Positions 17,096 to 44,703 of a stretch of 55,620 bases of DNA are shown here, in pieces; position 1 is the stretch's first letter, and each line of letters starts with the position of its first letter. The notes under the pieces are model-generated. The model did no database searches and was not told where the DNA came from. It saw only the letters and a program-made list of their open reading frames with translations. Origin of the DNA: Giesbergeria sp. (GTDB taxonomy: Bacteria > Pseudomonadota > Gammaproteobacteria > Burkholderiales > Burkholderiaceae_C); the NCBI RefSeq assembly GCF_028686475.1, contig NZ_JAQUCA010000021.1, positions 1 to 55,620 of the forward strand, written 5' to 3'. The translations under genes and the position numbers were made by a program.

Positions 17096-18433
17096 ATGCA
17101 AATTGGCAACCGTTTTCGTTGTTACCCCACCCCAGCACAAGAAAAAGTGCTGTTGCAGTGGATAGGTTGCCAGCGCTTTATTTATAACGCCAAGGTGCAA
17201 GAAGACCGCTATTTTCGCACCTTTGCCCGCAAGTCACTCGACCATGCTGGGTAGTTTGCCGCCATAGACCAACAATACAGCCAGTTCAAGCACCCAGAAC
17301 TGACCCCGTGGCTCTCGGAGGTGCCTAGCCAGCTGTTACGCAATGGTGCCGCCAAGTGGATGCAGGCTTACAGCCGTTTCTTTGCCGGTTTAGCTGGCCG
17401 CCCTACCATCCAGACTAGGCATGGTAAACAATCGATGTGGCTTACGCGCGAATTGTTTTCCTTTGAGCCTATCAAAGATGAGACCGGAAAAGTCACGCAC
17501 CACCTGCTGCACCTTGGCACCAAAAAGCATCCCCTGGGCTGCTTGGCTTTTACAGCCCACCGTGATTATTTACCCCCAGCTTCCATCCATTTGAGCATCC
17601 ATGCCGGGCGCTGGCATGTGTCTTTCAACTATGATGATGGCATCGCCGAACCCAGCGCTGAAGAAACCACCCAATGGCTATGCAGCTTCAGCGCCGCTGA
17701 ACTGAGCAGCGTCACACTGGGTTTGGACAGAGGTGTCCAGATTCCATTGGCGGCCAGCGCCAGCGACAGGCAAAATTTTGATTTCCGGGCAATAGAAAAA
17801 AAGCGTTTAACCCGGCAAGAAAAACACAAAAAGCGCTGGCAACGCCGCCAAGCACGAAGAATGCAGGGTTCAAGGCGTTGGAAAAAAGCCAAGCAGCGTG
17901 TAGCCCAATGCCAGCAATACGCAGCTAACCTGCGCCGCGATTTTTGCCATCAAACCAGCCATGCCTTGGTAGCAGACCCTGCTTACAAGCTGTATGTATT
18001 GGAGGCGCTCAAAGTCAAAAACATGACCACCAGTGCCAAAGGCGATACCGAGAAACCGGGCAAAAACGTCCAGCAAAAAGCCGGACTCAACCGCGCCATC
18101 TTGGCTTCAGGCTGGGGGCAAATCAAGGTTTACACACAATACAAAGCCCTGCGCGCAGGCAAACTGTGCATCGAAGTGCCCGCACATTATTCTTCGCAGG
18201 AGTGCAGCCATTGTGGCTTCACTCATCCAGACAACCGGCGCTCTCAAGCCGCGTTTGTTTGCCAAAGCTGCCACTACACCGACAACGCCGACACCAACGC
18301 CGCCAAGGTACTGGTCAAACGCGGGGTAGCCCTGATGCTGGGCGAGGGTGTAGCCAAGAAGAAAGTCAAGCGGGCAAGGATAAAACAACAAAAGGTAGGG
18401 GCGGAATGCTCCAAACCGGCTGGGGCAACCTAG
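17096..18433 (+). pseudogene. tnpB: TnpB RNA-guided endonuclease, interrupted by one amber codon
   Basis: Read through from ATG 17096 the frame encodes 445 residues with a single stop, TAG at 17252-17254 (codon 53, between DHAG and FAAIDQQY), where a CAG Gln is probable. Everything else of TnpB is present: an N-terminal MQIGNRFRCYPTPAQE, RuvC Asp in LGLDRGV, RuvC Glu in VLEALKVKNM, a zinc ribbon CSHCGFTH...FVCQSC, and the last RuvC Asp in NADTNAA. A GTG at 17321 could restart translation but would omit part of the wedge domain. This is a recent lesion, not old decay. Confidence 0.85.
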
Positions 18434-20932: not shown

Positions 20933-21709
20933 TCAGTGTTCAACGTTGAGCGCACTTTGCTGCACTGGCGATTCCAGCCTATCGCCCATGCGATAGACCC
21001 ACACGGCCCGCTCACCTTCTAACTGGTAGTGGGCATAGGGCGGCACATCGGGCACGGCAAACTCTAAACTGACCAGCCACGCGCCGGGGGCCATCTCAGC
21101 CTGGGCTTTGGCCCAAGCGCGCGCCATGCTTTCGGGACGTTGAAACAAATACACCAGCGCATAGCGTCCCCAAGGCTCTTGCCAAATGTCGCCTTGGCGC
21201 ACCTGCGCCCACGGGCAGCGGCGCGCGCACAGCCAGCGCAGCGGGCGGCTCCACTCTAGGCCATGCCAGCGTGCCAAGGGATAGGCTTGGCGCAAGGCCA
21301 ACAGGCCATCGCCCAAGCCACAACCGGCATCCAGTACCTCGGCCTCTGGCTCTAGCCAAGCATGGTCTGGCAAACGGTTCAGGGCATCGGTGGGCGTGGG
21401 AAACAACGGCGCATCGCGCCAAGCGTGCAGCGGATACACCGCCAACAACAAACCCAGCGGCAACAACCAAACCCATTGCGGGACGCTGGCCATGCCCGTC
21501 AACACCAGCGACAGCGGAAAGCCCAGCACAATCAACACCCGGCGCCAGAGGTTATCTCCCAGCAAACTGACCAGCGTACACCAGAGCATCGCCAACACCA
21601 GCGCCCACAAGGGTGGCAACACCCGTTGCAACAACAACAGCAACAACCAGCCCGAAGACCACGCCAACACAGCAGGAAGCGGCCAAGGCAAATGCAGCAA
21701 CATGTTCAA
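20933..21709 (-). CDS. membrane-anchored class I SAM-dependent methyltransferase
   Basis: A 258-residue protein with four hydrophobic N-terminal segments (residues about 8-100) followed by a Rossmann-type methyltransferase domain. Motif I is VLDAGCGLGDGLLAL, an acidic residue ends strand 2 (HGLEWS), and the later strand is YALVYLFQRPESMARA. Substrate unknown. Its ATG overlaps the parB stop by 4 nt, placing it in the hydrolase-parB-methyltransferase unit, an order seen in related genomes. Confidence 0.8.
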   Translation of the reverse strand: MNMLLHLPWPLPAVLAWSSGWLLLLLLQRVLPPLWALVLAMLWCTLVSLLGDNLWRRVLIVLGFPLSLVLTGMASVPQWVWLLPLGLLLAVYPLHAWRDAPLFPTPTDALNRLPDHAWLEPEAEVLDAGCGLGDGLLALRQAYPLARWHGLEWSRPLRWLCARRCPWAQVRQGDIWQEPWGRYALVYLFQRPESMARAWAKAQAEMAPGAWLVSLEFAVPDVPPYAHYQLEGERAVWVYRMGDRLESPVQQSALNVEH

Positions 21710-22524
21710 GCGGCGCGTAGACGTTCAATCAGGCCATTGAGGGCTTCGGTAGAGTCAAACCCAATCACCAGCTCGCCCACATCGTCCAACTGCCCCGCCC
21801 GGCGCACGCGCTTTTTAACGCGCACTTGCACTTGGGCCATCAACAGGTCGGACAATTCTTCTTCTAAACGCAACAGGTCGCGTGATTTACTGCGGGTGTT
21901 GGGTTTGGTATCTGTGCCCCGCTGGCCCTGCTGGGCTAACTTTTGGCCCAAGGCTTCGGCTTCGCGCACCGAGAGTTTTTTGGCGGCAATTTGCTGTGCG
22001 GCCGTGATTTGCGTGGCTTTGTCCAGCGTCAGCAGGGCGCGAGCGTGGCCCATGTCCAAATCACCCGCCATGAGCATGGTTTGCACCGGTGCGGCCAGTT
22101 GCAGCAGGCGCAGTAAATTGCTGGCGGTGCTGCGTGAACGGCCTACGGCCTGCGCGGCCTGTTCGTGCGTGAGGCCAAATTCTTGCACCAAGCGTTGCAA
22201 GCCTTGGGCCTCTTCCAATGGGTTGAGGTCTTCGCGTTGGATGTTTTCGATCAGCGCCATCGCTGCGGCGGCTTCGTCGGGCACCTCGCGCACCAGCACG
22301 GGCACGCTGTCCAATCCGGCCAGTTTGGCCGCGCAAAAGCGGCGCTCACCGGCAATGATTTCATAACGTCCGGCGTGCGGGCCATTGTGAAGGCGGCGCA
22401 CCAAAATCGGCTGCATGATGCCTTGGGCGCGGATGCTTTGGGCCAGCGCATACAGTGCGCCTTCGTCCATGTGCGTGCGTGGTTGGTATGGGCCGGGCAG
22501 CAGCTCCGTCAGGGGCAGCATCAT
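21706..22524 (-). CDS. parB: ParB/Spo0J chromosome-partitioning protein lacking the usual N-terminus
   Basis: A 272-residue DNA-binding CTPase clamp that loads at parS sites. Box I (GPYQPRTHMDEGALYALAQSIRAQGIMQPILVR), the CTP-binding arginine patch IIAGERRF, ENIQREDLNPLEEAQ, and the HTH EQAAQAVGRSRSTASNLLRLL are all present, with a C-terminal dimer domain (VIGFDSTEALNGLIERL). The protein starts right at box I: the 25-45 residue leader with the LGRGLxALL ParA-contact motif found in most family members is missing, and no in-frame start upstream encodes it. ATG overlaps the hydrolase stop (ATGA). No parA is adjacent. Confidence 0.9.
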   Translation of the reverse strand: MMLPLTELLPGPYQPRTHMDEGALYALAQSIRAQGIMQPILVRRLHNGPHAGRYEIIAGERRFCAAKLAGLDSVPVLVREVPDEAAAAMALIENIQREDLNPLEEAQGLQRLVQEFGLTHEQAAQAVGRSRSTASNLLRLLQLAAPVQTMLMAGDLDMGHARALLTLDKATQITAAQQIAAKKLSVREAEALGQKLAQQGQRGTDTKPNTRSKSRDLLRLEEELSDLLMAQVQVRVKKRVRRAGQLDDVGELVIGFDSTEALNGLIERLRAA

Positions 22525-25463: not shown

Positions 25464-25586
25464 AGTGGGTTCTCAGACGCGGGCAACACACCCGACAACA
25501 CAGACAGCAACAGCCAACAGCAGCCAAAACCGCGATTGTGCGCGAAGCGCCGGATGAACGCCGCTGGCCTGCGGGTTCTCCCTATC

Positions 25587-28583
25587 ATGGCAGCATCTCT
25601 TCTGCCTGCTGCCCCTACCGTGAACGCACCTCCCACCCCAGCCTCCAACCGCCCTGCCCACCACCCAGCCCCTCCCCCTGAAGAAGGCCGCCCACTGGCG
25701 GCAGCTTTGGCCCGACAGCAGTGCATCAGCATTCGGGGCGCGCGCACGCACAACCTGAAAAATATCGACCTCGACATCCCACGCGAGCAGCTGGTGGTGA
25801 TTACCGGGTTGTCCGGCTCCGGCAAATCCAGTTTGGCCTTTGACACCCTGTATGCCGAAGGCCAGCGCCGTTATGTCGAAAGCCTGTCCACCTATGCACG
25901 CCAGTTTTTGGGGCGCTTGGACAAACCCGATGTGGACAGCATCGAGGGACTGTCCCCGGCCATCGCCATCGAGCAAAAAGCCACCAGCCACAACCCGCGT
26001 TCCACCGTGGGCACGGTGACGGAAATCCACGACTACCTGCGCCTGCTCTATGCGCGCGCAGGCACCCCCTATTGCCCTGACCACGGCCAAGCGCTGGCAG
26101 CACAAACCATCAGCCAAATGGTCGATAGCCTGCTGGCCTTGGCTGCCGACACCCGCTTGATGGTGTTGGCCCCAGTGGCACGCCAGCGCAAAGGCGAGTT
26201 CACGGAACTGTTCCAAGAGATGCAGGCGCGTGGTTATGTGCGCTTTCGGGTAGATGGACAAATTTATGCCCACGAGCAACTGCCCCTGTTGAAAAAAACC
26301 GACAAGCACGATGTCGATGTGGTGATAGACCGGCTCAAGGTGCGCCCCGAAGTGCAGCAGCGCTTGGCCGAGAGTGTGGAGGCCGCGCTGCGCGTAGCTG
26401 GCCCCGATGCAGGCGGGCGCGTGCTGGCGCTGGAGATGGACAGCGGCACTGAACACCTGTTCAGCAGCCAGTTTGCCTGCCCCGTGTGCAGCTACGCCCT
26501 GCCCGCGCTGGAGCCACGACTGTTTTCTTTTAATGCGCCGTTGGGGGCCTGCCCCAGTTGCGATGGCCTTGGCCACCGGGATGTGTTTGCTGCCGCACGG
26601 GTGGTGGCCTTTCCAGCGCTCAGTTTGGCCAGTGGAGCCATCCCCGGTTGGGACAAGCGCAACAGCACCGGCTTTGCCCTGCTAGAGAGTTTGGCCCGCC
26701 ATTACGGCTTTGATTTGGAAACACCGTTTGCGGCTTTACCAGACAAAGTGCAGCAAGTCATTTTGCATGGCTCGGGGGATGAATCCATTGCCTTTCAATA
26801 CTTTTTAGGCAGTGGGGCCAACAAAGGGCAAGCCATCAGCAAACAACACCCGTTTGAAGGTATCCTACCCAACATGGCCCGGCGCTGGCGCGATACCGAC
26901 TCCAACGCCGTGCGCGAAGAGCTGGCCCGCTGGCGCAGCACCCAACCCTGCCCCGATTGTTTAGGGGCACGCCTGCGCCGCGAAGCCCGGCACGTCAAGC
27001 TAGGCGATGGCGCGCAAGCCAAGGCGATTCAAGACATCAGCCAGAGTACGCTGGCCGAGGCCCATGCGTGGTTCTCTGGCCTGCACCTCTCGGGCAGCAA
27101 AGCCGAGATTGCAGCCCCGGTGGTGCGCGAAATTGTCACGCGGCTGCAATTTCTCAACGATGTCGGCCTCAACTACCTCAGCTTGGGCCGCAGTGCTGAT
27201 AGCCTCAGCGGTGGCGAAGCCCAGCGCATCCGGCTGGCCTCGCAAATTGGCTCGGGCCTCAGCGGCGTGATGTATGTGCTGGATGAACCCAGCATCGGCC
27301 TGCACCAGCGCGACAACGACCGCCTGATTGCCACCCTGCAACACCTGCGCGACATCGGCAACAGCGTGATTGTGGTGGAACACGACCAAGACATGATGCG
27401 CGCCGCCGACCACATCATCGACCTGGGGCCGGGCGCTGGCGTGCATGGCGGCCAAATCATGGCACAGGGCAACTACGCGCAAGTGCGCGCCAACCCGCAA
27501 TCGCCCACTGGGCGCTATCTGGCCGGTACGTACTCTATCCCGGTACCAGTGCGGCGCACGCCGCCCAAGGCCACGCAACAATTGCGCCTGATGGGTGCCC
27601 ACGGCAACAACCTGCAACAGGTCAGCGTGGATTTTCCAGTGGGCCTGTTCACCTGCGTCACGGGGGTTTCGGGTTCGGGCAAAAGCACCCTCGTCAATGA
27701 CACCCTGCACAAAGCCATTGCCCGGCAGCTCTACCGCTCCCACGACGAGCCAGCCCCCCACGAAGCCATTGAAGGCATAGACTATTTCGACAAGGTCATT
27801 AACGTCGATCAATCCCCCATTGGCCGCACGCCGCGCAGCAATCCGGCCACCTACACCGGCCTGTTCACTCCCATCCGCGAACTGATGGCCGAAACCCCCA
27901 GCGCCAAAGAGCGCGGCTATGGCCCCGGACGCTTCTCCTTCAATGTGGCCGGGGGGCGCTGCGAAGCCTGTCAGGGTGATGGCGTAGTCAAGGTAGAAAT
28001 GCACTTTCTGGCCGATGTCTATGTACCCTGCGACATCTGCCACGGCCAACGCTATAACCGCGAAACGCTAGAAGTGCAATGGAAGGGCCGCCACATTGCA
28101 CAAATTTTGGCACTCACAGTAGAAGAAGCACACGCTTTTTTTAAAGACGTGCCCAGCATTGCGCGCAAGCTGCAAACCTTGCTCGATGTCGGCTTGAGCT
28201 ACATCCGCTTGGGCCAAAGCGCCACCACGCTCTCGGGTGGCGAAGCCCAGCGCGTCAAACTGGCGCAAGAACTGAGCAAGCGCGACACGGGCCGCACCCT
28301 CTACATCCTAGACGAACCCACCACCGGCCTGCACTTTGCCGACATCGCCCTGTTGCTCAAGGTGTTGCACCAGTTGCGCGATGCAGGCAACACCATTGTG
28401 GTGATTGAACACAACCTCGATGTGATTAAAACCGCCGACTGGCTGATTGACATGGGGCCAGAGGGTGGCGCAGGCGGCGGCACCGTGGTAGCCACTGGCA
28501 CGCCAGAGGCTCTGGCCCAGCATCCCCATAGCCACACTGGTCACTACCTAAAACCCTTTTTGGACTGGGCAGAATGTAACTAA
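25587..28583 (+). CDS. uvrA: excinuclease ABC subunit A
   Basis: About 998 residues. Damage-recognition ATPase of nucleotide excision repair with two ABC modules. First Walker A is [12 protein letters not shown] and second [12 protein letters not shown]. The signatures are [17 protein letters not shown] and [15 protein letters not shown]. The zinc sites are CPVC...CPSC and CEAC...CDIC. A non-conserved Pro-rich N-terminal extension of about 40 residues makes the start uncertain (ATG 25587 chosen; ATG 25554 and GTG 25620 are possible). No LexA box was seen upstream. The candidate replication origin begins 17 nt after the stop. Confidence 0.95.
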
Positions 28584-28599
28584 ATGTAACAATTTAGCC

Positions 28600-28832
28600 T
28601 GTGGATAACCCTGTGGAAAATTTTTGAATAACTAGGTACTTATCCACAGGGGTAGGCACTTTTGAAAAGTTGTTCATTTTTCGGTCACAGGAATTGAGGG
28701 GTGGTATGCACAGGGTTATCCACCGGATAAGTTGTTGATTTTAATCATGAAACCTTAGTTATCCACAGAAAACGGCTTCCTTCTACTACTACTACTATGT
28801 GTATATATAAAAAAAGTAGTTAATAGCCTAGG
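28600..28832 (+). other. oriC: candidate replication origin (oriC): DnaA boxes, CTA trios, AT-rich unwinding region
   Basis: Three perfect DnaA boxes (TTATCCACA or its complement) lie at 28600-28608, 28640-28648 and 28759-28767. Near matches are at 28612-28620 (TGTGGAAAA), 28704-28712 (GTATGCACA) and 28716-28724 (TTATCCACC). Sixteen nt after the last box come five consecutive CTA triplets (28783-28797; TAG on the other strand, the DnaA-trio pattern). An AT-rich run 28798-28828 with TGTATATATAAAAAAA follows. Box, GC-rich spacer, trios, AT-rich tract is the order of bacterial basal unwinding systems. No gene fits in 28584-29049. dnaA itself is not in the window. Confidence 0.8.
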
Positions 28833-28953
28833 ATAACTTTTTGGCAGTTTGGCAAGGCAAAACGGCCCCATCCACCCCCCCAGTGCCATGCCAGCTGGCG
28901 GCAAGTGCCTGTCAAGGCATCCAGCTTTTGCTATAGTGCCCACCTGCGCCGAT

Positions 28954-28981: not shown

Positions 28982-29049
28982 TCCAGCTAAAGACAGACCG
29001 ACACCCCCGCCCGGCCCCGTTTTTAGCTTTGGCCTTGTCGGGTTTTCTT

Positions 29050-30177
29050 ATGTCGTTCATCGCCACCCCTGAATTTCTGCACTTCCCACAGGCATTGCCT
29101 TTGCAAAGTGGTGCCTCTATCCGTGACTACACGCTGGCCTACGAAACCTATGGCAGCTTGAATGCCGAGCGTTCCAATGCGGTGCTGGTCTGCCATGCCC
29201 TCAATGCCTCGCACCATGTCGCGGGGGTGTATGCCGGGCAAGACAAAAGCGAAGGCTGGTGGAACAACATGATTGGGCCGGGCAAACCGGTCGATACCAA
29301 CCGCTTTTTTGTCATTGGTATCAACAATTTAGGTTCTTGCTTTGGCTCTACTGGCCCCATGCACACCAACCCCGATACCGGACAGGTGTATGGGGCAGAC
29401 TTCCCGGTGTTGACAGTGGAGGATTGGGTCAACGCCCAAGCACGCCTGCTAGACCACTTAGGGGTGCAACAACTGGCCGCTGTGTTGGGTGGCAGCTTGG
29501 GTGGGATGCAAGCCTTGAGCTGGACACTGCAATACCCCGAGCGTGTGCGCCATGCGGTAGTCGTGGCCAGTGCGCCCAACCTCAACGCCGAGAACATCGC
29601 TTTTAACGAGGTAGCACGCCGCGCCATCGTCACCGACCCCGACTTTCATGGCGGCCATTTCTACCAACATGGCGTGGTACCCAAACGCGGGCTACGTATC
29701 GCGCGCATGATTGGCCACATCACCTACCTGAGTGACGATGTGATGAATGAAAAGTTCGGTCGCCAACTGCGCGAGGGCCTGACCCTCAAATACAGCACCC
29801 AAGACATCGAGTTTCAGATTGAGAGCTACCTGCGCTACCAAGGCGACAAGTTCAGCGAATACTTTGATGCCAACACCTACCTGCTCATCACCCGCGCCTT
29901 GGATTACTTTGACCCCGCGCGGGCCTTTGGCGGTAATTTAAGCCAAGCACTGGCCCGTGCCACGGCGCAATTTTTGTTGGTCAGCTTTAGCACCGACTGG
30001 CGTTTTTCGCCCCAACGCAGCCGCGAAATCGTCAAAGCCTTGTTAGACAACCGGCGCGATGTGAGCTATGCCGAAATTGATGCCCCACACGGCCACGATG
30101 CCTTTTTGCTCGACGATGCGCGCTACCTGAACCTGATTCGTGCCTATTTTGAGCGCATTGCCAAGGAGTTCGCATGA
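29050..30177 (+). CDS. metX: homoserine O-acyltransferase MetX
   Basis: A 375-residue alpha/beta hydrolase-fold acyltransferase starting methionine synthesis from homoserine. The nucleophile Ser is in [12 protein letters not shown], the oxyanion/substrate region in [11 protein letters not shown], the Asp in [11 protein letters not shown] and the His in [12 protein letters not shown]. In beta- and gammaproteobacteria MetX with a MetW partner commonly uses succinyl-CoA. ATG 29050 gives MSFIATPEF; the open frame upstream has only Leu/TTG codons. It overlaps metW by 4 nt (ATGA). Confidence 0.95.
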
Positions 30178-36731: not shown

Positions 36732-37154
36732 TCACCTTTCAAGCCTGCTACAGGCCACCAGTGCCCACCACGTCACCGGGCAAGCCTCTACGGTTGCACC
36801 AGCGGGCAGCATGGGCCTGCCATCGGTGGGCAGTAGCATCTGACCGCTAGGCAGTAGTAGGCTGGCATCCCAGACAGCACGCCATGCCCCCTTATCGGCG
36901 CGGTAGAACAACACCGGCTCCTGCCCTACGGCTTGGGCTTGCCTTTGTGCCTGTGCCCACCAGCCAGCCACTAGGGCCGGGGTGATAGCTGCATAGCGCT
37001 TGCACTCGATTGACCAACCTGGCAGCCCTTGCAGGTCATCCTCCCCAGCCAGATTGCGAACCCGGCGGGCCACGGTGTACCCGGTCAACTCGGACAACAG
37101 GCGTGCCAGCTCCCGCTCCCCCACCTTGCCCTTGGTGCGAGACATGCCAGCCAT
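36732..37154 (-). CDS. PD-(D/E)XK nuclease, Holliday-junction-resolvase-like
   Basis: A 140-residue protein with the archaeal-resolvase-like arrangement: KGKVGERELARLL (Glu), AGEDDLQGLPGWSIECKRYA (Asp then Glu-x-Lys), and a helical second half. Such nucleases in phages and satellites resolve recombination or replication intermediates. Its start overlaps the last base of the exonuclease stop, so it belongs to the same operon. Alternative: another VRR/PD-(D/E)XK nicking enzyme. Confidence 0.65.
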   Translation of the reverse strand: MAGMSRTKGKVGERELARLLSELTGYTVARRVRNLAGEDDLQGLPGWSIECKRYAAITPALVAGWWAQAQRQAQAVGQEPVLFYRADKGAWRAVWDASLLLPSGQMLLPTDGRPMLPAGATVEACPVTWWALVACSRLER

Positions 37155-37861
37155 TACACGGCCCCCACGGCTTGCAGCTTGTGCCAGATACTGGCCACGG
37201 CTTGCGCGTCCTGTAGGTTGTAGGCGGCGATAGCCTCACGCTGGCCAGCCAACCATGCGTCATACACGCCAGCACCATCCATGCCATCCTTGGGATTGGG
37301 CAGCGCCAGCACGTCGCACAACTCGGACAGCCGCACGAACTTGCCGAAGCCAGCCCACGCCAGCATGGTGCATTTGTAGTGCTGGCCAGCCCGTCCCATT
37401 GGGCCTGCATTGCGAAGCCAGCGCGGGAGGCGTACCCCATGCACCACGGCGCGGCGGTAGAGGAAGCCCAAATCAAAGGCGGCATTGTGGGCCACGGCGG
37501 TATGGTCATCGGGCGGGAAGGTATGCGGCCATTGCTTGCTTTCCTTCACTTGCCAGCCCTCTACAGCGTCAAAGAAGGCTTGCAGCAAGGCGGCCTCACT
37601 ATCGCCTTGCCCACGGCATTGCACCCACTCTAGGCCGTCGCCATTGGTGGCAGCTATCGAGACAATCTCCCCACGGCTGCCACCGTCTAGGGCTTGCTTT
37701 AGGTACGCCTCCCCAGCGGCTTCGGCAGCATCGGTAGCCCACCAGGCGGCGATGGATTCGGGCTTCTTCAGGGTAGCGGGCGGCTTAATCGTGGCCTTGA
37801 CCAAATCAGCAGCGCCGGGCCGCTGGCTGGGGATGGTTTCGATGTCGAGAAAAATCAGCAT
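37154..37861 (-). CDS. DnaQ/RNase H-fold 3'-5' exonuclease
   Basis: A 235-residue DEDD exonuclease. Exo I is IFLDIETIPS (Asp, Glu), Exo II HNAAFDLGFLYRR (Asp) and Exo III AYNLQDAQAVASIW (Asp; Tyr-x-x-x-Asp form). It resembles stand-alone exonucleases linked to phage replication modules. It overlaps both neighbours by 1-7 nt. Probably proofreads or processes ends during replication of the element. Confidence 0.8.
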   Translation of the reverse strand: MLIFLDIETIPSQRPGAADLVKATIKPPATLKKPESIAAWWATDAAEAAGEAYLKQALDGGSRGEIVSIAATNGDGLEWVQCRGQGDSEAALLQAFFDAVEGWQVKESKQWPHTFPPDDHTAVAHNAAFDLGFLYRRAVVHGVRLPRWLRNAGPMGRAGQHYKCTMLAWAGFGKFVRLSELCDVLALPNPKDGMDGAGVYDAWLAGQREAIAAYNLQDAQAVASIWHKLQAVGAV

Positions 37862-38073
37862 GGTGTGCGCTCCAATGGTGGGGTGTGAACTTGAGGGGGG
37901 CAGCCGTGGATTTCACGTGTACCGCATAGCCAGCCGTTACCCTCCCGGCTGGTGTAGCCCTTGCCCTGTGTAAATGAACCGGGGTCAGGCCGGGGCCAGT
38001 AGCAGGGCTTTTTGAGGCAGTCCGGGCCACTGACTGACACCAGCACCTTGATAGCTTTGTCCTTGATTCGCAT
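37855..38073 (-). CDS. small hypothetical protein of the island
   Basis: 72 residues (MRIKDKAIKVLVSVSGPDCLKKPCYWPRPDPGSFTQGKGYTS...), basic, with four Cys and two His that could bind zinc. It starts 5 nt after the SSB-like gene and overlaps the exonuclease start by 7 nt, the tight packing expected for a real gene. No family recognised. Confidence 0.5.
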   Translation of the reverse strand: MRIKDKAIKVLVSVSGPDCLKKPCYWPRPDPGSFTQGKGYTSREGNGWLCGTREIHGCPPQVHTPPLERTPC

Positions 38074-38078
38074 GGCGC

Positions 38079-38774
38079 TTAGAACGGGATGCCGTCATCA
38101 TCAAACGGCGCGAACTCGGTTGAATAGGCCGGTGGTGCTGGCTGGGCAGCGGCTGGCGCTGGTGGGGCCATAGGCGGGGTAACAGGGGCCGGGGTAGGTG
38201 CTGGTGCCAGTGCAATAGAACGCGGCTTATTCGGGATGGCTTGATATTGCGGCGATTCGCTAATCTGCTGTTGCAGGCGGCTTCCCAGTTGGGCGAATAA
38301 CTCCCAGTCTGGCGCGCTCAAATCAAAATGCTGCAAAGGCAGTTCACCAGCCGGGGCCGCCATACCGCGCGGGAGCTTGGATGCGCTGGCGATATTGGCG
38401 TAAGTCTTGCCATCTTTACCGGTATTGACCACGCTCAAAAAGCACGGTTGCCCCAGCACCACGGCCAAATCGAACCGGCGGATTTCCTCAGCAGTGAAGT
38501 CCCGTCCGCGCCAACCTTGCAGGAAGCCACGCAGCGCGCTTTTTTCATGCTTGGACAGGGTAAAGCGCTTAGACACCACGAAGGGCGTGCCATCGTTGCG
38601 CCGGGTCTCTGGGTCAAGGATTTCAAAGGACACCAGCACTTTATGGGCCGCTTTGGCCTCGCCCTCATAGGTGCTAGTTTGCGTACCAAGGTCAATCAAG
38701 CCCACGCATTTGGCCGGGTAGGTGCCAGCCTCGATAGGGGTGTAGTCGGTCTGGGTGCTGTCAGGGATAAGCAT
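38079..38774 (-). CDS. phage-type single-stranded DNA-binding protein
   Basis: A 231-residue protein: an N-terminal beta-rich domain (residues about 10-150, YTPIEAGTYPAKCVGLIDLG ... VSFEILDPETR), a helical stretch, a Pro/Ala linker, and an acidic tip FDDDGIPF. The tip copies the DDDIPF tail by which host SSB recruits partners, with one Gly inserted. The N-domain resembles phage replication-associated ssDNA-binding proteins (DUF669-like). First gene after the putative origin; heads the operon with the exonuclease and resolvase. Confidence 0.7.
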   Translation of the reverse strand: MLIPDSTQTDYTPIEAGTYPAKCVGLIDLGTQTSTYEGEAKAAHKVLVSFEILDPETRRNDGTPFVVSKRFTLSKHEKSALRGFLQGWRGRDFTAEEIRRFDLAVVLGQPCFLSVVNTGKDGKTYANIASASKLPRGMAAPAGELPLQHFDLSAPDWELFAQLGSRLQQQISESPQYQAIPNKPRSIALAPAPTPAPVTPPMAPPAPAAAQPAPPAYSTEFAPFDDDGIPF

Positions 38775-38810
38775 AAAAAGCCTTTTTGATAGATTGAAAA
38801 GTTATAGATT

Positions 38811-38850
38811 CGGTCGTTCTTCGGTCTTTGATAGCGGTCTTTTTTCGGTC
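38811..38850 (+). repeat. helically phased CGGTC repeats
   Basis: CGGTC(G/T)T occurs at 38811, 38822, 38835 and 38846, spaced 11, 13 and 11 bp. The array lies about 40 nt upstream of the SSB-like gene. Could be regulator or initiator sites on one face of the helix. Confidence 0.5.
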
Positions 38851-38940
38851 TTGGGTGGGGGGCTGGCGCTGGGTGTCAGGCAGCGCCAGCAAAGGGGGGG
38901 GATTGCTATGCTTTTTGTAGCTGCAATGCCTTATCTATCA

Positions 38941-39065
38941 AGGAATTCCACGCATTCCATTCTTTTCCATTGGAATAAAATGGAATTGTGGAAAATTCCA
39001 TTCCATTCCACTCCCCCTATAGGGAGTGGAATAGTGGAATCCAGTGGAAAAAAAAGATGGAATGA
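38941..39065. repeat. GGAAT/ATTCC array with 11-bp stem: candidate origin of the element
   Basis: Eleven GGAAT or ATTCC pentamers in 125 bp, in both orientations, around a hairpin ATTCCACTCCC-CCTATA-GGGAGTGGAAT (39005-39032). It ends at the primase-helicase stop codon. P4 and PICI satellites place iteron arrays next to their primase-helicase gene. With the phased CGGTC repeats it fills the 293-nt gap 38775-39067. Confidence 0.55.
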
Positions 39066-39067
39066 AG

Positions 39068-41017
39068 TCACCGGGCACTCCCAGCGATGGAAACCATGCC
39101 AGCAACGTCCCAAACCACTTGGGCCGAAGCCAGCTTCTTAACGGCGTTGTAGATGCCGGAACTGCTGTACCGGCCTTCAAAGTGCTCTACCAATTCCTTC
39201 TTTTTGAGGCCAGTCTTGCGGGTGGCTAAAAATTCCACGATGGCCCCCTCCACTTCGCCCATGCGCTTGCCAGTGGGCTTGTCTGGTGCATCGGTGGGCA
39301 CTACCACGCACGACGTGGCCTGTTCTCCCCACTTGGTAAGCCCCAGCGTTACCCGCTCTAGGGTGAACCCAATGCGCTCTCCCTTGGTGCTTAAATCCCG
39401 TTGCTTGGTGGCTTCGGCACAGCGGCCTGTGGGTGCGTCCGTCACCTCTATCTCGGTGTCCACAGCAGCGCGGATACCTGACCAACCACGGGCACCAGCG
39501 GCGGCGGCTTTGCCACTGTGGTGAATCATGAGGAAGTGCGCGCCAGTAGCGCGGCGAATGCGGTCAAAGCGTTGCACCACTAGGCCCATATCCTGCCCAC
39601 TGTTTTCGTTGGCACCAGCGGACAGCCGCGCCAGTGTGTCGCCCACAATCAGGCGCACGGGCTGGCCTGCAAGGCGCTCTAGGTGCTTTGCCGCGTCAAT
39701 CAGGGCCACCGTATCCACATCATCGGAAAACAGGTCTAGCGGGCTTTGCACGATGGCGAAGTGTGGAACCTTGCATCGGTGGTGCTGCTGGTAGGCTTGC
39801 AGTCGCCCACGCACAGAACCGGGCGATTCGCTGGCCACGTACATCACCAGCCCCTGCTCTACCTTGCGGCCATGCCATTCCACGCCACGGGCCACAGCAC
39901 AGGCAAGGTCGATAGCAAAGAAGGTTTTGCCGCTGTTGCTGTCGCCGTACAGCATGGAACCATCGCCCACCGTGAGTAGCCCTTGTACCAGCTCATCGGG
40001 CGGGTTGTAGGTGTCTCCCAGTTGGTCGGCAAAGACAATGCCAAGGGGTAGGCGTTCCGGGGCTTCTACGGGGGCTGTAGCGGCCTCTAGGATGGCGGCC
40101 AAGGCCACAGCACCGGGCACGCTTTCATCCTGCCAAACGTCCCATGCGTCATAGTTGGCTGGCTTGCCTTCAGGCATCTTTGCCACGGCGCAACCCAGTT
40201 CCAAGGCCACCTTGTCGGCTTCGGCTTCCTTGCCAGCATCGGGCACCAGCACAGGCCTGGCACCGGGGCACATAGTCTGCACAGCGCCAGCGGCTTTGCC
40301 CATGTTGCCCACGCCAAAGGCCACCACGGCGGCATGGCCTGTCTCGATAAAGCACGCCCACGCCGCGCCGATACCCTCGCACACATAGGCGGGCTGGCCT
40401 GCCACCAGTTGCCCAACCACATGCACCCCAGCCATAGGACAGCCGGGCAGGTTCATCTTGGGGCCGGTGGGCGGGATGGCTTGCAGCGATAGCAGCGCAC
40501 CATCGGGGCCACGTACAGGCACCAGCAATGCACCGGCCATGCTGTGCCCTCCAATGCGTAGCGCGTCGGTATCGGGTAGCACGCGCAAGCCAGCAAGGGC
40601 GGGGCCGTCGCTGATTTCCTTTTTGGCGCAGTAAGGGTGCTGGGCTGTGGCTGGCGCTGCACGCTCCCAGACTTCAGCAGGGGCCATGCCGGGGCGCAGC
40701 GGCTTCGGGGTAGGCATGGGTAGCGGCGCGGCCTTTGCGGGCCGTGGTGGACTTGTTTTGCCATCGCGCCAGCCGTGTTGCTTGGCAATGTCGAACAGGG
40801 TTGCAGCGCCCCTGCCTTTGCCGGGCTTAATGGATTTCCACAGGTCACGGGCAGCCGCTTGGGTGTAGGTGTCGCCGTGGCTACTCCATTGGTCGAAGCT
40901 GTCGAAGCTGATTCCGGCAGCATGGGCACCCATAGCCACCTTCACCCAGTCCTCACGGGGCACGTTGGGGCTGATGGCTTGCAGGGCGCTGTGGGCGCGG
41001 TCGAGTTCGTTTGTCAT
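39068..41017 (-). CDS. PriCT-2/Toprim/RecA-like primase-helicase
   Basis: A 649-residue replication protein in four parts. PriCT-2 occupies about 1-90 (ALQAISPNVPREDWVKVAMGAHAAG...FDQWS). A Toprim domain spans about 185-310 with Glu in AYVCEGIGAAWACF and acidic residues in VLVPDAGKEAEAD. A RepA/AAA_25 helicase core spans about 340-560, with Walker A YGDSNSGKTFFAIDLA, Walker B VRLIVGDTLARLSAG and His sensor MIHHSGK. A winged-helix C-terminus (KKELVEHFEGRYSSSGIYNAVKKL) completes it. This fits a satellite/plasmid replicase acting with the upstream repeats. Overlaps the 127-aa gene by 4 nt. Confidence 0.88.
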   Translation of the reverse strand: MTNELDRAHSALQAISPNVPREDWVKVAMGAHAAGISFDSFDQWSSHGDTYTQAAARDLWKSIKPGKGRGAATLFDIAKQHGWRDGKTSPPRPAKAAPLPMPTPKPLRPGMAPAEVWERAAPATAQHPYCAKKEISDGPALAGLRVLPDTDALRIGGHSMAGALLVPVRGPDGALLSLQAIPPTGPKMNLPGCPMAGVHVVGQLVAGQPAYVCEGIGAAWACFIETGHAAVVAFGVGNMGKAAGAVQTMCPGARPVLVPDAGKEAEADKVALELGCAVAKMPEGKPANYDAWDVWQDESVPGAVALAAILEAATAPVEAPERLPLGIVFADQLGDTYNPPDELVQGLLTVGDGSMLYGDSNSGKTFFAIDLACAVARGVEWHGRKVEQGLVMYVASESPGSVRGRLQAYQQHHRCKVPHFAIVQSPLDLFSDDVDTVALIDAAKHLERLAGQPVRLIVGDTLARLSAGANENSGQDMGLVVQRFDRIRRATGAHFLMIHHSGKAAAAGARGWSGIRAAVDTEIEVTDAPTGRCAEATKQRDLSTKGERIGFTLERVTLGLTKWGEQATSCVVVPTDAPDKPTGKRMGEVEGAIVEFLATRKTGLKKKELVEHFEGRYSSSGIYNAVKKLASAQVVWDVAGMVSIAGSAR

Positions 41018-41397
41018 GCCGCTTCGCCTCGTTTGGCAGCTTTTTCAGCGGCCTGTATAGCGGCAATATGTTCGGCACGTTCGAGGCGGCGGGTGTGGCC
41101 GGGGTCTGCGCCAGTGGCGTACATCTCAGCAAAGTCTGCACAGCAAGCCAGTGCATTGAGTAACCCCGTCACAGTAGCGGTTGACAGCGCCAGCACTTCG
41201 CCATCCATCTCCATATCTGTCTCACGCTGCTGCAAGATAGTGACGATGGAACGGATACCCTCGTGGGCGGTACTAATGCGTGCCAGCGCCATTTCACCCA
41301 CCAGTACAGCCGCTTCATTACGCTGGGGTTCGTAGGGTGAGTAATCGGGCACGGAGGCATTGCGGCCTTTGGGGTCTTTCAGGCAAAAGTTACTCAT
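41014..41397 (-). CDS. hypothetical protein of the island (127 aa)
   Basis: A mostly helical protein (MSNFCLKDPKGRNASVPDYSPYEPQRNEAAVLVGEMALARISTAHEGIRSIVTILQQRE...) with a long amphipathic central region and a basic C-terminus (RLERAEHIAAIQAAEKAAKRGE). No recognised domain. It overlaps its neighbours by 4 nt on both sides, so it is part of one polycistronic message. Confidence 0.6.
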   Translation of the reverse strand: MSNFCLKDPKGRNASVPDYSPYEPQRNEAAVLVGEMALARISTAHEGIRSIVTILQQRETDMEMDGEVLALSTATVTGLLNALACCADFAEMYATGADPGHTRRLERAEHIAAIQAAEKAAKRGEAA

Positions 41398-41609
41398 GCT
41401 GCCACCTCCAAAGCGTCCGCTTGGGCCACCAGTGCAGCGGCCAATTGGCGGGCTTGGTCTGCGCTCAATTCAATGCCGAAGCTGGCCCATGCGGCGCGGT
41501 CGTAAAACCGCATATCAATGCAGCGGTTAGGAAACACCATAGAGGGTGCAACGGTCAATACACTGTTGGATGCCAGCTCGATAGTGGTGGGGGTGTTGTT
41601 AGACAGCAT
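41394..41609 (-). CDS. small hypothetical protein of the island (71 aa)
   Basis: MLSNNTPTTIELASNSVLTVAPSMVF... ending ELSADQARQLAAALVAQADALEVAA, with a beta-like first half and an Ala-rich C-terminal helix. The frame is open further upstream, but that part is antisense-like. ATG 41609 overlaps the end of the Ash-like gene by 11 nt. Function unknown. Confidence 0.55.
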   Translation of the reverse strand: MLSNNTPTTIELASNSVLTVAPSMVFPNRCIDMRFYDRAAWASFGIELSADQARQLAAALVAQADALEVAA

Positions 41610-42093
41610 GGGCCACCTCCACACGCTCAAATGCTGCCAACTGGCGCAGCGCAGACAAGGCTTGAACGCATTTGCGTTTGGCCCCAGCATGGTTGTGGCG
41701 ATTGGCGTAGAACTTGGCCATAGCCAACGCGTTGACGGCTTCGCCATGCAAAGCAACGGGGTCGAGGTGGGGTTTGACCAAGGCGGTCTTGGATGCGGGC
41801 GCAGTGTGGCCCTTGGGGATAGCGTTAGCCAAGATAGGCTCCTTCGGAACAGGTGGTAAACCTGCCGCCATCGCTTCCAAACGATGGTGGCAGACTGTGC
41901 AGGGTTGGAAGACCGGCCGAAGGAACCGGCGCACCTTTGCAGATGCCCCCACACAGCCCACCAAAAAGGATAGCTGTGCGTGCCACACGCAGCATGTGGA
42001 CGTAAAAAAGCCGCTCTCCAAACTGGGCGCGGCTACTGCGCCTTCGGTAATCGGGCTTCCAAACCCGTGATGCTTGTTGGCATCGGTGGTCAT
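41599..42093 (-). CDS. Ash-like protein of P4-type elements
   Basis: A 164-residue frame from ATG 42093. The first part (GSPITEGAVAAPSLESGFFTSTCC...FLVGCVG..AKVRRFLRPVFQPCTVCHHRLEAMAAGLPPVPKEPI) follows the pattern of Ash/Icd-like proteins found beside primases of P4-like elements. The second half (ALVKPHLDPVALHGEAVNALAMAKFYANRHNHAGAKRKCVQALSAL) is helical and island-specific. A similar core is found at 18623-18907. An upstream ATG (42261) is possible. Role in phage interference or cell-division inhibition is only by family analogy. Confidence 0.5.
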   Translation of the reverse strand: MTTDANKHHGFGSPITEGAVAAPSLESGFFTSTCCVWHAQLSFLVGCVGASAKVRRFLRPVFQPCTVCHHRLEAMAAGLPPVPKEPILANAIPKGHTAPASKTALVKPHLDPVALHGEAVNALAMAKFYANRHNHAGAKRKCVQALSALRQLAAFERVEVAHAV

Positions 42094-42211
42094 TGTGCCA
42101 CAGCGCGGCGCGGCGGTGCAAGTCAGCGCCAGCCCTAAGGTGGCTTGGGCCATCATTTGGCGGCCTTCCACTGGCGCAAGCGCAGCACCAAATACACGAT
42201 GGCGGCCACCA

Positions 42212-42400
42212 TTACTGTGCCCCCACGGGGCTAGGCTTACCGGTGGCCAGAGTGGCTTCAATGCGTAGCAAAACGGCCTCGAGGCGCTTCAATACTTCGG
42301 TTTGGTCGTGTTGGTAAAGGTGAACGTCTTGAATGCCCTCCTTCACTTGCATGAGGGTCTGTTCTACGTCTTCTTGGTGGGCAGTGGTGGCTTGGCTCAT
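42212..42400 (-). CDS. small coiled-coil protein of the island (62 aa)
   Basis: MSQATTAHQEDVEQTLMQVKEGIQDVHLYQHDQTEVLKRLEAVLLRIEATL... is a nearly continuous helix with heptad leucines/valines, likely a coiled coil. ATG overlaps the alpA stop by 4 nt. Unknown function. Confidence 0.55.
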   Translation of the reverse strand: MSQATTAHQEDVEQTLMQVKEGIQDVHLYQHDQTEVLKRLEAVLLRIEATLATGKPSPVGAQ

Positions 42401-42642
42401 GCGGCACCTCCAATGGCTTGCTGTGCCAGCCAGCGGCGAACGTCACCAACGCGCCATGCGGTTACGCGCTCAGAAAGTTTCGCTGGGGAGGGAAATTGGC
42501 CAGACTTGACCTTGCGCCAAAGTGTGTTGGCACTGAAAGGCAGCAAGGCCGGGCCGGGGCGCTTGGAGTCGGTCACCAGTTGCGATTGACGGATAAAAGC
42601 GCTGTCTGGCAGTTGGTCAAATGCTGGGGTATTGGCTGGCAT
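42397..42642 (-). CDS. AlpA-family transcriptional regulator/excisionase
   Basis: An 81-residue MerR-like winged-helix protein: DSAFIRQSQLV...LLPFSANTLWRKVKSGQFPSPAKLSERVTAWRVGDVRRWLAQQ matches AlpA proteins, which activate or excise P4-like elements. ATG 42642 (MPANTPAF) is the plausible start; the longer frame reads through the inverted repeat at 42697-42744. First gene of the replication operon. Confidence 0.82.
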   Translation of the reverse strand: MPANTPAFDQLPDSAFIRQSQLVTDSKRPGPALLPFSANTLWRKVKSGQFPSPAKLSERVTAWRVGDVRRWLAQQAIGGAA

Positions 42643-42696
42643 GTTGTGCAGTCCTGTGGATGGAATGCACGCATTTTTTCGGGTTTGTTGCGGTAA

Positions 42697-42744
42697 GTCT
42701 ATGTACGAATTCGGGCCAAAAAAGGGCCAATTTTGTACATAGAC
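42697..42744. promoter_or_regulatory. 48-bp inverted repeat upstream of alpA
   Basis: GTCTATGTAC (42697-42706) and GTACATAGAC (42735-42744) are exact inverse complements. Inside are AATT/AATT and GGCC/GGCC pairs around an A-rich loop. It sits between the stop of the 195-aa gene and the alpA start, a good position for an operator or autoregulatory site. It lacks a terminal T-run, so a terminator is less likely. Confidence 0.55.
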
Positions 42745-42752
42745 AAAGCGGC

Positions 42753-43340
42753 TCAAAGGCTGTAGCCAGCATCTCGGAAACTTGGGCGGACGTGCTCCAT
42801 GAAATATCGGTGTGCTTTGTCCGAGTATGGAACGCCAGCCGCTTTGAATACAGCCTCGCAAATCTTGCGGAAAACCCCTGTGTGTGTTGGCACGATGCCA
42901 GCGGGCATTACCTCAGAGGCTATGCAGCGGATAAAGTCAGCCTGCCTGTGGATTAGTTTTGCCGCGCCAGCCTTGCCACTGCTTGGTATTCTTTCAATTG
43001 CGCGGGAGGCTGCTATCGTGATTCGTGGAACAACATATCCACCAAGGTCTAGCTCTCTGGCTGGTGTGCCTGTGTCCAGCATATCGTCATAGCTGAAAAA
43101 CTCAGAATCCAAAGCCAAGCGGTCTTCAAATTCCAAGCCATCTATGGCATTTTTTAATTTATCGGCCAGTTCGCTGATTTTCTGCAAGGAACGCACCCTA
43201 GCTGTTTCCGTTGGTGTCGCTGGGCGTATTTCCTCTTTCCAGCGTTTTAAGAATTCGGCTTGCCTTATCAGCCCATTAGCCACGGACTCAGTAATGCGGC
43301 TATCGGCGCATATTTTTCGCAGGCTGTCTGCACAATCCAT
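42753..43340 (-). CDS. unknown cargo protein of the island (195 aa)
   Basis: MDCADSLRKICADSRITESVANGLIRQAEFLKRWKEEIRPATPTE... A soluble, mainly helical protein with no recognised motif, rather more AT-rich than the replication genes. It lies between the integrase and alpA, a usual place for variable cargo in satellites. ATG 43340 is preceded by GGGGGAA; the frame extends to 43385 without a better start. No toxin, nuclease or methylase motif is evident. Confidence 0.6.
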   Translation of the reverse strand: MDCADSLRKICADSRITESVANGLIRQAEFLKRWKEEIRPATPTETARVRSLQKISELADKLKNAIDGLEFEDRLALDSEFFSYDDMLDTGTPARELDLGGYVVPRITIAASRAIERIPSSGKAGAAKLIHRQADFIRCIASEVMPAGIVPTHTGVFRKICEAVFKAAGVPYSDKAHRYFMEHVRPSFRDAGYSL

Positions 43341-43372
43341 ACTTCCCCCTGTATGCCCCCTGAAAACAAGAA

Positions 43373-43440
43373 AGCGCCCCAACACCGGACAGGGGGTTCC
43401 GGTATAGCCATCGGGTAATTAGTCCGAGGCTTGGGGCGCT
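43373..43440 (-). other. 68-nt three-way-junction fold
   Basis: P1: AGCGCCCCAA (43373-43382) with TTGGGGCGCT (43431-43440), 10 perfect pairs. P2: ACCGGA (43384-43389) with TCCGGT (43398-43403). P3: GCC-A-TCGG (43407-43414) with CCGAGGC (43424-43430). Nearly every base is in a stem. It lies between the integrase stop and the 195-aa gene; on the minus strand TTTCTTGTTTT follows, so it may be an elaborate terminator, a structured RNA or a folded DNA site. Confidence 0.55.
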
Positions 43441-43479
43441 GGGGTCTATTGTGGCATGGCCGGGCTGGCGCTGTGGTGG

Positions 43480-44703
43480 TTATGCCGCCTTGCTGTGCAG
43501 TTGGATGATGTCTGCGCCAGTGCGTAGCCGGTCTAGGTAGTCTGCCCACCGTTGCATCATGGTGCGTCGGGCCGGTAGGTGGGCGGTGCGGTTGTAGGCG
43601 CGGCCATTGGCATCCTTTACCGTGTGCGCTAACTGGTGTTCTATCAAATCAACCCGTTCACCTAGCACCTCATCCAAGATGGTACGGGCGGTGGCACGGA
43701 AGCCGTGGGCAGTCTGTACGGTGCTGGGGTAGCCCATAGCGCGCAAGGCTTGGGCCACCGTGCTTTCACTCATGGGCCTATCTGCTTTGGCGCTGGTGCT
43801 GAAGACGCAAGGGCCATGCCCTGTAAGGCTGTGCAGTTCGCGCAACATCGCCACGGCTTGGGCTGGCAAGGGCACGATATGGTCGTTCCGCATTTTCATT
43901 TTGTCCGCTGGTATGGCCCATGTTGCGCTGTCGAGGTCAATTTCTGACCATTGGGCACGGCGCAGTTCACCGGGGCGCACCAGTAGCAGCGGCGATAGTT
44001 TCAAGGCCACCACCGTGCAAGGATGGCCGTTGTAGGCGTGCATGGCGCGCAACAAGGCACCCAGCGCCAGCGGGTCAGTGATAGCGGGATGGTGGTGTAT
44101 CTTGGCTCGGGGCATGGTGGCACGCATACCAACAGTTGCGTCCCGCTCTACCAAGCCACGGCCTATAGCGTAGGCAAACACCAGTTCGCAGGCTTTGCCG
44201 ATACGCTGGGCGGTGTCGGTTACACCACGGGCAGTTACCTTATCCAGCATAGCGCGCATGGTGGGTGGCTTGATAGAGGCAATGGGCAACCGGCCTATCT
44301 CTGGGAAAACGTCAATCTGCAAGCGGCGCTCTATCCGCGCTGCTGTGGCTGGCGTGCGTTTGTGGGCAGTAGCCTTTAGCCATGCCAGTGCCACAGCTTC
44401 AAAGGTGTGCTGTGCAGCGCTGGTGCTGGCTTGCTTGGCTTCGCGTTTGGCGGTGCTGGGGTCTATGCCTTGGGCCAATTGGGCCTTGGCAGTATCACGC
44501 GCCTTGCGTGCTTGCACCAGCGATAGCGCCGGATAGATGCCGATATACAGCGTCTTCTGTTTGCCGTGGATACGGTAGGCCATGCGCCAATACTTGCCTT
44601 GGGCCTTGATATGCAGGTACAGCCCTCCGCCATCGCTGTGTTTGTCGCCAGCCGGTTTGCCGCTGTGCTTTGCGTTCTTGATAAAGGTGTCGGTCAGTGC
44701 CAC
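43480..44703 (-). CDS. int: P4-type tyrosine integrase
   Basis: A 407-residue tyrosine recombinase. Residues 1-95 are the DUF4102-type arm-binding domain (SDGGGLYLHIKAQGKYWRMAYRIHGKQKTLYIGIYPALSL), about 100-190 the core-binding domain, and the rest catalytic: Arg in LVRPGELRRAQW, Lys in ADKMKMRNDHIV, His-x-x-Arg in AHGFRATART, His in EHQLAHTV, Tyr in RAYNRTAHL. The start is GTG 44703. It adjoins the tRNA-Thr into which the element is inserted, the normal layout for this family. Confidence 0.94.
   Translation of the reverse strand: MALTDTFIKNAKHSGKPAGDKHSDGGGLYLHIKAQGKYWRMAYRIHGKQKTLYIGIYPALSLVQARKARDTAKAQLAQGIDPSTAKREAKQASTSAAQHTFEAVALAWLKATAHKRTPATAARIERRLQIDVFPEIGRLPIASIKPPTMRAMLDKVTARGVTDTAQRIGKACELVFAYAIGRGLVERDATVGMRATMPRAKIHHHPAITDPLALGALLRAMHAYNGHPCTVVALKLSPLLLVRPGELRRAQWSEIDLDSATWAIPADKMKMRNDHIVPLPAQAVAMLRELHSLTGHGPCVFSTSAKADRPMSESTVAQALRAMGYPSTVQTAHGFRATARTILDEVLGERVDLIEHQLAHTVKDANGRAYNRTAHLPARRTMMQRWADYLDRLRTGADIIQLHSKAA

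Follow-up and report, generated by a model that had tools for sequence, protein, structure and literature searches.

A candidate chromosomal replication origin between uvrA and metX, away from dnaA, in a Giesbergeria-like bacterium

Does the short region between uvrA and metX, where DnaA boxes cluster, serve as the chromosomal replication origin of a Giesbergeria-like bacterium whose dnaA lies elsewhere? The window, which is the whole stretch of DNA analysed here, is the entire contig C4 (55,620 bp) of a draft genome of 3.39 Mb in 65 contigs (G000). The original prediction, made from the letters of the window, proposed an origin at this place with DnaA boxes, DnaA trios and an unwinding element in the usual order. 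The features of the region are as follows.

25536..28583, plus strand: uvrA reading frame, left neighbour (NF001503, 1480.5 bits)
28594..28825, plus strand: candidate oriC unit, the conserved block of 232 positions (alignment A1 of 25 units; model R1 match at 28597-28822, 140.1 bits)
28600..28608, minus strand: perfect DnaA box TTATCCACA, outward (window scan; position conserved in A1)
28612..28620, minus strand: near DnaA box TTTTCCACA, second outward (one-mismatch scan)
28640..28648, plus strand: perfect DnaA box, first inward (scan; A1)
28704..28712, plus strand: near DnaA box GTATGCACA (one-mismatch scan)
28716..28724, plus strand: near DnaA box TTATCCACC (one-mismatch scan)
28728..28740, plus strand: IHF-like site TAAGTTGTTGATT (by the IHF consensus)
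28759..28767, plus strand: perfect DnaA box, trio-proximal (scan; A1)
28783..28797, plus strand: five CTA triplets (3'-GAT-5' on the other strand), putative DnaA-trio run (conserved in A1; trio definition from the available part of PMC8287927)
28798..28825, plus strand: A/T-rich tract, presumed unwinding element (sequence; A1)
29029..30177, plus strand: metX reading frame, right neighbour (NF047916, 664.9 bits; the ATG at 29050 is the likelier start)

The three perfect TTATCCACA boxes that had been predicted were recovered at 28600(-), 28640(+) and 28759(+). Three near-perfect boxes had been counted as well, and this number was too low; four sites differ by one mismatch from TTATNCACA, at 28612(-), 28623(-), 28704(+) and 28716(+). 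Comparison by hand showed that the sites at 28612 and 28716 are one mismatch from TTATCCACA itself. The clustering exceeds chance, since none of 400 simulated first-order Markov windows contained two perfect boxes within 170 bp. The perfect box word occurs 33 times in the whole genome, as opposed to 8 times for the reversed control word. One-mismatch boxes are at chance level over the whole window (25 found, 28.55 expected). It is the clustering of boxes that counts, and not the window-wide number of one-mismatch boxes.

The five CTA triplets start 15 nt past the 28759 box and are followed by the A/T-rich tract, a putative unwinding region adjoining the boxes, in the order that had been proposed. 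The spacer between this box and the trios, GAAAACGGCTTCCTT, had been described as GC-rich; with 7 G+C in 15 letters, it is not. According to the available part of PMC8287927, the basal unwinding system (BUS) is predicted in 1755 of 2070 origins, and the spacer from box to trios has a limit of 16 and is most commonly 13. The rule given there, a minimum of three trios no more than 16 bp from a DnaA box, fits the five CTA triplets of the block. The block resembles the BUS origins described there in its perfect box, its 15 nt spacer and its 3'-GAT-5' trio run, all read here from sequence alone. Unlike the BUS layout in that part of the paper, the conserved block here also includes an outward box, which lies 159 bp upstream of the box nearest the trios.

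Conservation of the block was examined at several levels, with 'genus' and 'family' being the groupings of the genome collection used. A DNA search with 28584-28845 gave matches in 19 of 100 genomes, including the window's own. In the shared layout, one or two boxes face outward; an inward box comes after 28-40 bp and another after a further 118-119 bp, and a spacer of about 14-15 nt then leads to a CTACTACTACTACTAT-like run and an A/T tract. In alignment A1, which holds 25 units, mean column identity is 61%, and letters of the boxes and trios are among the invariant columns. The IHF consensus is matched exactly in 7 of the 25 aligned units, and its AA and one G are identical in all 25. From these units we built R1, a sequence-only profile that includes no structure and implies no RNA. 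R1 matched 25 of 26 genomes in the genus (the 25 rows used for building match by construction), and the one miss, G010, is 67% complete. In a family sample of 200 genomes of at least 95% completeness, R1 found the unit in 194, representing 113 of 115 genera, and not in the remaining 6. Across the order, 22 of 24 genomes matched; matches outside the family were fewer and weaker, and the two genomes without a match (G074 and G097) both lie outside it.

DnaA-box clusters without origin activity are known, and the block could thus be a DnaA-titration or DnaA-reactivation site like datA or DARS, rather than an origin. We regard this as very unlikely. A site of this kind would be a box cluster without a conserved unwinding element; here, the trio run and the A/T tract are conserved at a fixed distance. 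In addition, R1 matches the genome just once, and the GC skew of relatives turns at or near the unit.

In the window's genome, which is 99% complete, the 140.1-bit match is the sole one at E-values up to 0.01, these values being rough. A looser search of nine stretches gave 15.6 and 13.6 bits for the next best places outside the unit. The original prediction had also noted that dnaA is not adjacent, and dnaA indeed lies on a separate contig (C7:19029). From the lengths of the two contigs, the distance between the unit and dnaA is probably at least about 45 kb. A rival box cluster beside dnaA had been named as something to search for. Two perfect DnaA boxes 49 bp apart lie directly upstream of dnaA (C7:18522-18579; L083 10523-10580), as expected for autoregulation, and across the 19 kb surrounding the gene, R1 revealed no origin unit.

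Cumulative GC skew had been proposed as a check, with a turn expected at 28.6-28.8 kb. The skew does turn near the unit, although not exactly there: on this draft contig, which is not a closed replicon, the minimum is at 33,038, 4.4 kb to the right of the unit (0 of 500 permutations), and in Giesbergeria anulus, it is 2.6 kb to the right (27 of 500 permutations reach the change score). In Simplicispira metamorpha, the minimum is 1 kb from the first unit, and 62 of 500 permutations reach the score. An integrated element (about 37-45 kb) and a glycine-rich gene (34.4 kb) may shift the local minimum in the window. The window alone is insufficient, and the skew argument is carried by relatives, foremost by the complete congener G004. 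Within a 400-kb stretch of this genome, the minimum is at 3,139,627, the units start at 3,139,823 and 3,140,288, and dnaA is at 3,085,898. The minimum is therefore 196 bp from a unit and 54 kb from dnaA, and the skew change score is 6.75 at the unit versus 4.75 at dnaA.

Two genomes with a more distant dnaA give a looser placement on the same side. In G136, with dnaA at a distance of 260 kb, the unit has a change score of 4.60 and dnaA one of -0.05; no permutation of 500 reaches the maximum, and the sampled minimum lies about 22 kb from the unit. The corresponding scores in G271, with dnaA at 300 kb, are 2.68 and -0.95; here, 18 of 500 permutations score as high, and the sampled minimum lies about 31 kb from the unit. 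The skew in both turns on the side of the unit and not at dnaA. G032 is mixed, since its change score favors the unit (4.75 versus 2.97 at dnaA) but its raw cumulative minimum, 1,543,667, is closer to dnaA than to the units. The original prediction also held that gene direction flips around the site; this is true only roughly, with uvrA pointing towards the site and most long ORFs at 37-52 kb pointing back.

The single R1 match in the genome, the family-wide conservation of the unit and the G004 skew minimum at the unit together indicate that 28594-28825 is the chromosomal oriC of this bacterium, unlinked from dnaA, as originally proposed. We place the probability of this reading, in which replication would fire from the block, at roughly 93%. 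Two other identities have to be weighed. The block may be a former or spare origin while a working one lies elsewhere in the genome; two or three units are present in many relatives, the window's skew minimum is displaced, and the genome is a draft in 65 contigs. Even so, R1 matches just once in an assembly of 99% completeness, nothing outside the unit approaches its R1 score in the nine stretches, and no unit is found in the 19 kb around dnaA or at the old site described below, which makes this reading quite improbable too.

The other identity, the origin of a plasmid or an integrated element, is suggested by genes on the same contig. An element has probably integrated at window 37154-44703, at a distance of 8-16 kb from the origin; it comprises a tyrosine integrase (43480-44703), a PriCT_2/AAA_25 protein (39068-41017) and a PolB-like exonuclease (37154-37861); an IS605-type TnpB gene is located at 17321-18433. 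The direct neighbours of the block are uvrA and metX, and no replication initiator gene adjoins it. The same uvrA and metX flanks are present in G000, G002 and G007, and uvrA and mcp flank the unit in G009. The unit is family-wide, and it differs from a locus in the same genome that looks like a plasmid-type origin (C25:16744-17899; L084 1745-2900), where a RepA_C gene precedes three perfect DnaA boxes in tandem, spaced 13 bp apart, and repeated words of 20-odd bp. A search of plasmid records gave 32 matches, the best 20 of which cover just the first 121 bases of the query, which are the end of uvrA. A plasmid or element origin is the least credible of the alternatives, at the very edge of what we would consider.

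The anatomy and conservation of the block were observed directly; DnaA binding, bending, opening and firing would proceed as at established origins. DnaA would bind the outward boxes at 28600 and 28612 and the inward boxes at 28640 and 28759, and an IHF-type bend between the boxes may fold the complex. DnaA-ATP would then extend from the 28759 box over the CTA/GAT trios and open the A/T tract at 28798-28825. The helicase would be loaded at the opened tract, and two forks would leave. E. coli oriC is likewise compact, lies away from dnaA, and has boxes in both directions and an IHF site; the window block is similar in its compactness, its distance from dnaA and its box directions, carries a possible counterpart of the IHF site, and differs in flanking genes and box order. 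The oriC of the window is ordinary in its anatomy. What sets it apart is the change of place inside a single genus, along with its multi-copy relatives.

Of the 25 genomes in the genus that have a unit, 20 carry it in what we call the old neighbourhood, which comprises RdgC, an LTXXQ gene and a PAS/GAF-GGDEF-EAL gene, frequently together with DAHP synthase and an NLPC/P60 gene. The unit follows uvrA in four (G000, G002, G007 and G009), and in one (G019) the contig is too short to place it. In G004, uvrA is about 77 kb from the unit. The old neighbourhood is intact and free of R1 matches in all three uvrA-type genomes examined (G000, G002 and G009). The matched stretches of the LTXXQ and EAL genes are separated by 172-193 bp in these three genomes and by about 1.2 kb, which includes the unit, in G022. 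C. granuli (G014) likewise lacks a unit between the LTXXQ and EAL genes, but has one on the far side of RdgC. Among the 80 metX loci retained in a scan across named genomes, only those of G. anulus and S. metamorpha have a unit in the flanks kept (up to 10 kb). The window MetX is 97% identical to that of G. anulus, the best among the 80.

These arrangements suggest that, in the group comprising G000, G002, G007 and G009, the unit left the RdgC/GGDEF-EAL site empty and came to lie at the 3' end of uvrA. The direction of the move is taken from the numbers, 20 genomes versus 4. The route may have been a copy followed by loss, a direct move, or a rearrangement of genes around the origin. The dnaA tree unites G009, G000 and G002 in one clade (99/98) and places S. 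metamorpha as their sister (81/83). The order is uvrA-unit-mcp in G009 and uvrA-unit-metX in G000, G002 and G007; an inversion of metX-mcp would explain metX after the unit in the latter three. The best unit tree does not unite the four uvrA units in a single clade, but such a clade is not rejected (p-AU 0.41).

We also considered whether the uvrA unit and the third unit of S. metamorpha, whose A/T side also abuts mcp, represent the same insertion. Grouping of the latter with the uvrA units was rejected (p-AU 0.0019), and it groups instead with its own second copy (87/89). Several rows of the unit tree, including that of the window, have an odd base make-up, and gene conversion is possible; a shared insertion is therefore neither demonstrated nor fully excluded. 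uvrA was not found on S. metamorpha contig C5.

Multiple copies are common among the relatives. One unit is present in 8 genomes of the genus, two in 16 (one of these partial), and three in S. metamorpha, where two units are 433 bp apart at the old place and one is inverted 38 kb off, with dnaA between. In the 200 family genomes, one unit is found in 127, two in 60, three in 7 and none in 6, so that 67 carry two or three. In several subclades of the unit tree, the first copies of different species cluster together, as do the second copies, which indicates that these duplications are older than the species and that both copies were retained; this paralogy is read from one short unit tree in which 20 of 44 inner branches are starred. 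Copies can be far apart, as in G211 (C1:48937 and 95365, on opposite strands) and G029 (C1:40054, 49253 and 69328), with spacing of up to 46 kb.

A broader and distinctly speculative proposal, which we hold to be possible but rather unlikely, is that oriC in this family is a portable cassette of 230 bp, which is copied, dispersed over distances of up to about 46 kb, and lost again. Chromosomes with two or three simultaneous origins would then be ordinary, more than one copy would fire, and moves would occur by copy and subsequent loss. The window would show an end state (a single copy at a new place, with the old one empty) and S. metamorpha an intermediate one, in which the old place has two copies and a third is 38 kb away.

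The original prediction pointed to the separation from dnaA. The separation is real, but a dnaA-unlinked origin is common among the relatives. We searched 44 genomes chosen for their few contigs (one of them, G090, from another family), and 43 have the unit (G118 does not). In 15 of the 43, the unit is 0.8-1.1 kb from the start of the DnaA domain, always on the downstream side, presumably in the dnaA-dnaN gap. In the other 28, it is at least 14 kb from dnaA, at distances of up to 460 kb plus one unwrapped figure of 2.4 Mb, those of G137 and G176 being taken along the contig with circularity ignored. The dnaA-adjacent origins carry the same unit by R1, whereas the window unit is on a different contig from dnaA.

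A dnaA-unlinked origin has a precedent in print. On chromosome 1 of Cupriavidus metallidurans CH34, the skew transition is about 90 kb from dnaA and adjoins 213 nt with three perfect DnaA boxes, according to the available part of PMC2864759. This is a compact, dnaA-unlinked origin in the same order of bacteria, and the 213-nt region is probably the same kind of unit, likened here by its description in that part and not by sequence comparison. Neither a move nor copies are reported in that portion of the paper. The portion of PMC4948915 available treats the location of the main B. cenocepacia origin as uncertain. Gao 2015 (PMC4403523) stated that evidence was lacking for two functional origins in use on a single bacterial chromosome. 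Its table lists four representative candidates with different origin regions, none from Comamonadaceae and one a Ralstonia. The window's relatives are similar in having more than one origin-like region per chromosome; unlike those cases, their copies are paralogues of one unit, and the window genome has one. No description of the move or the copies appeared among the titles of the open-licence matches listed, and the positions may already stand in DoriC. The unusual points are thus the move to uvrA in the window's clade and the extra copies in relatives.

The position of an origin sets gene dosage, strand bias and chromosome layout. To our knowledge, few cases are available in which a change of origin place can be traced step by step. 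In this case, the unit has an empty former site and an occupied new one, and close relatives still carry it at the former site, some of them in duplicate, so that G. anulus and S. metamorpha are named species in which the path could be followed. The paralogous units kept across species make the natural use of several origins per chromosome directly testable.

The proximity of parB and ssb had been cited in favor of an origin. parB is indeed near ssb (21706-22524), its two neighbours being a serine hydrolase and a gene of no family. As evidence this is weak, since parB was not found on the G. anulus contig carrying ssb-uvrA-unit-metX. No parS with up to three mismatches was found in the window, and KOPS words are near expectation there (14 found, 11.8 expected) with no polarity. 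Elsewhere in the genome, two perfect DnaA boxes lie 39 bp apart at C1:10021-10068 (L085 3022-3069). R1 matches weakly in the left part only (13.6 bits), so the pair is without trios; it could be a titration site.
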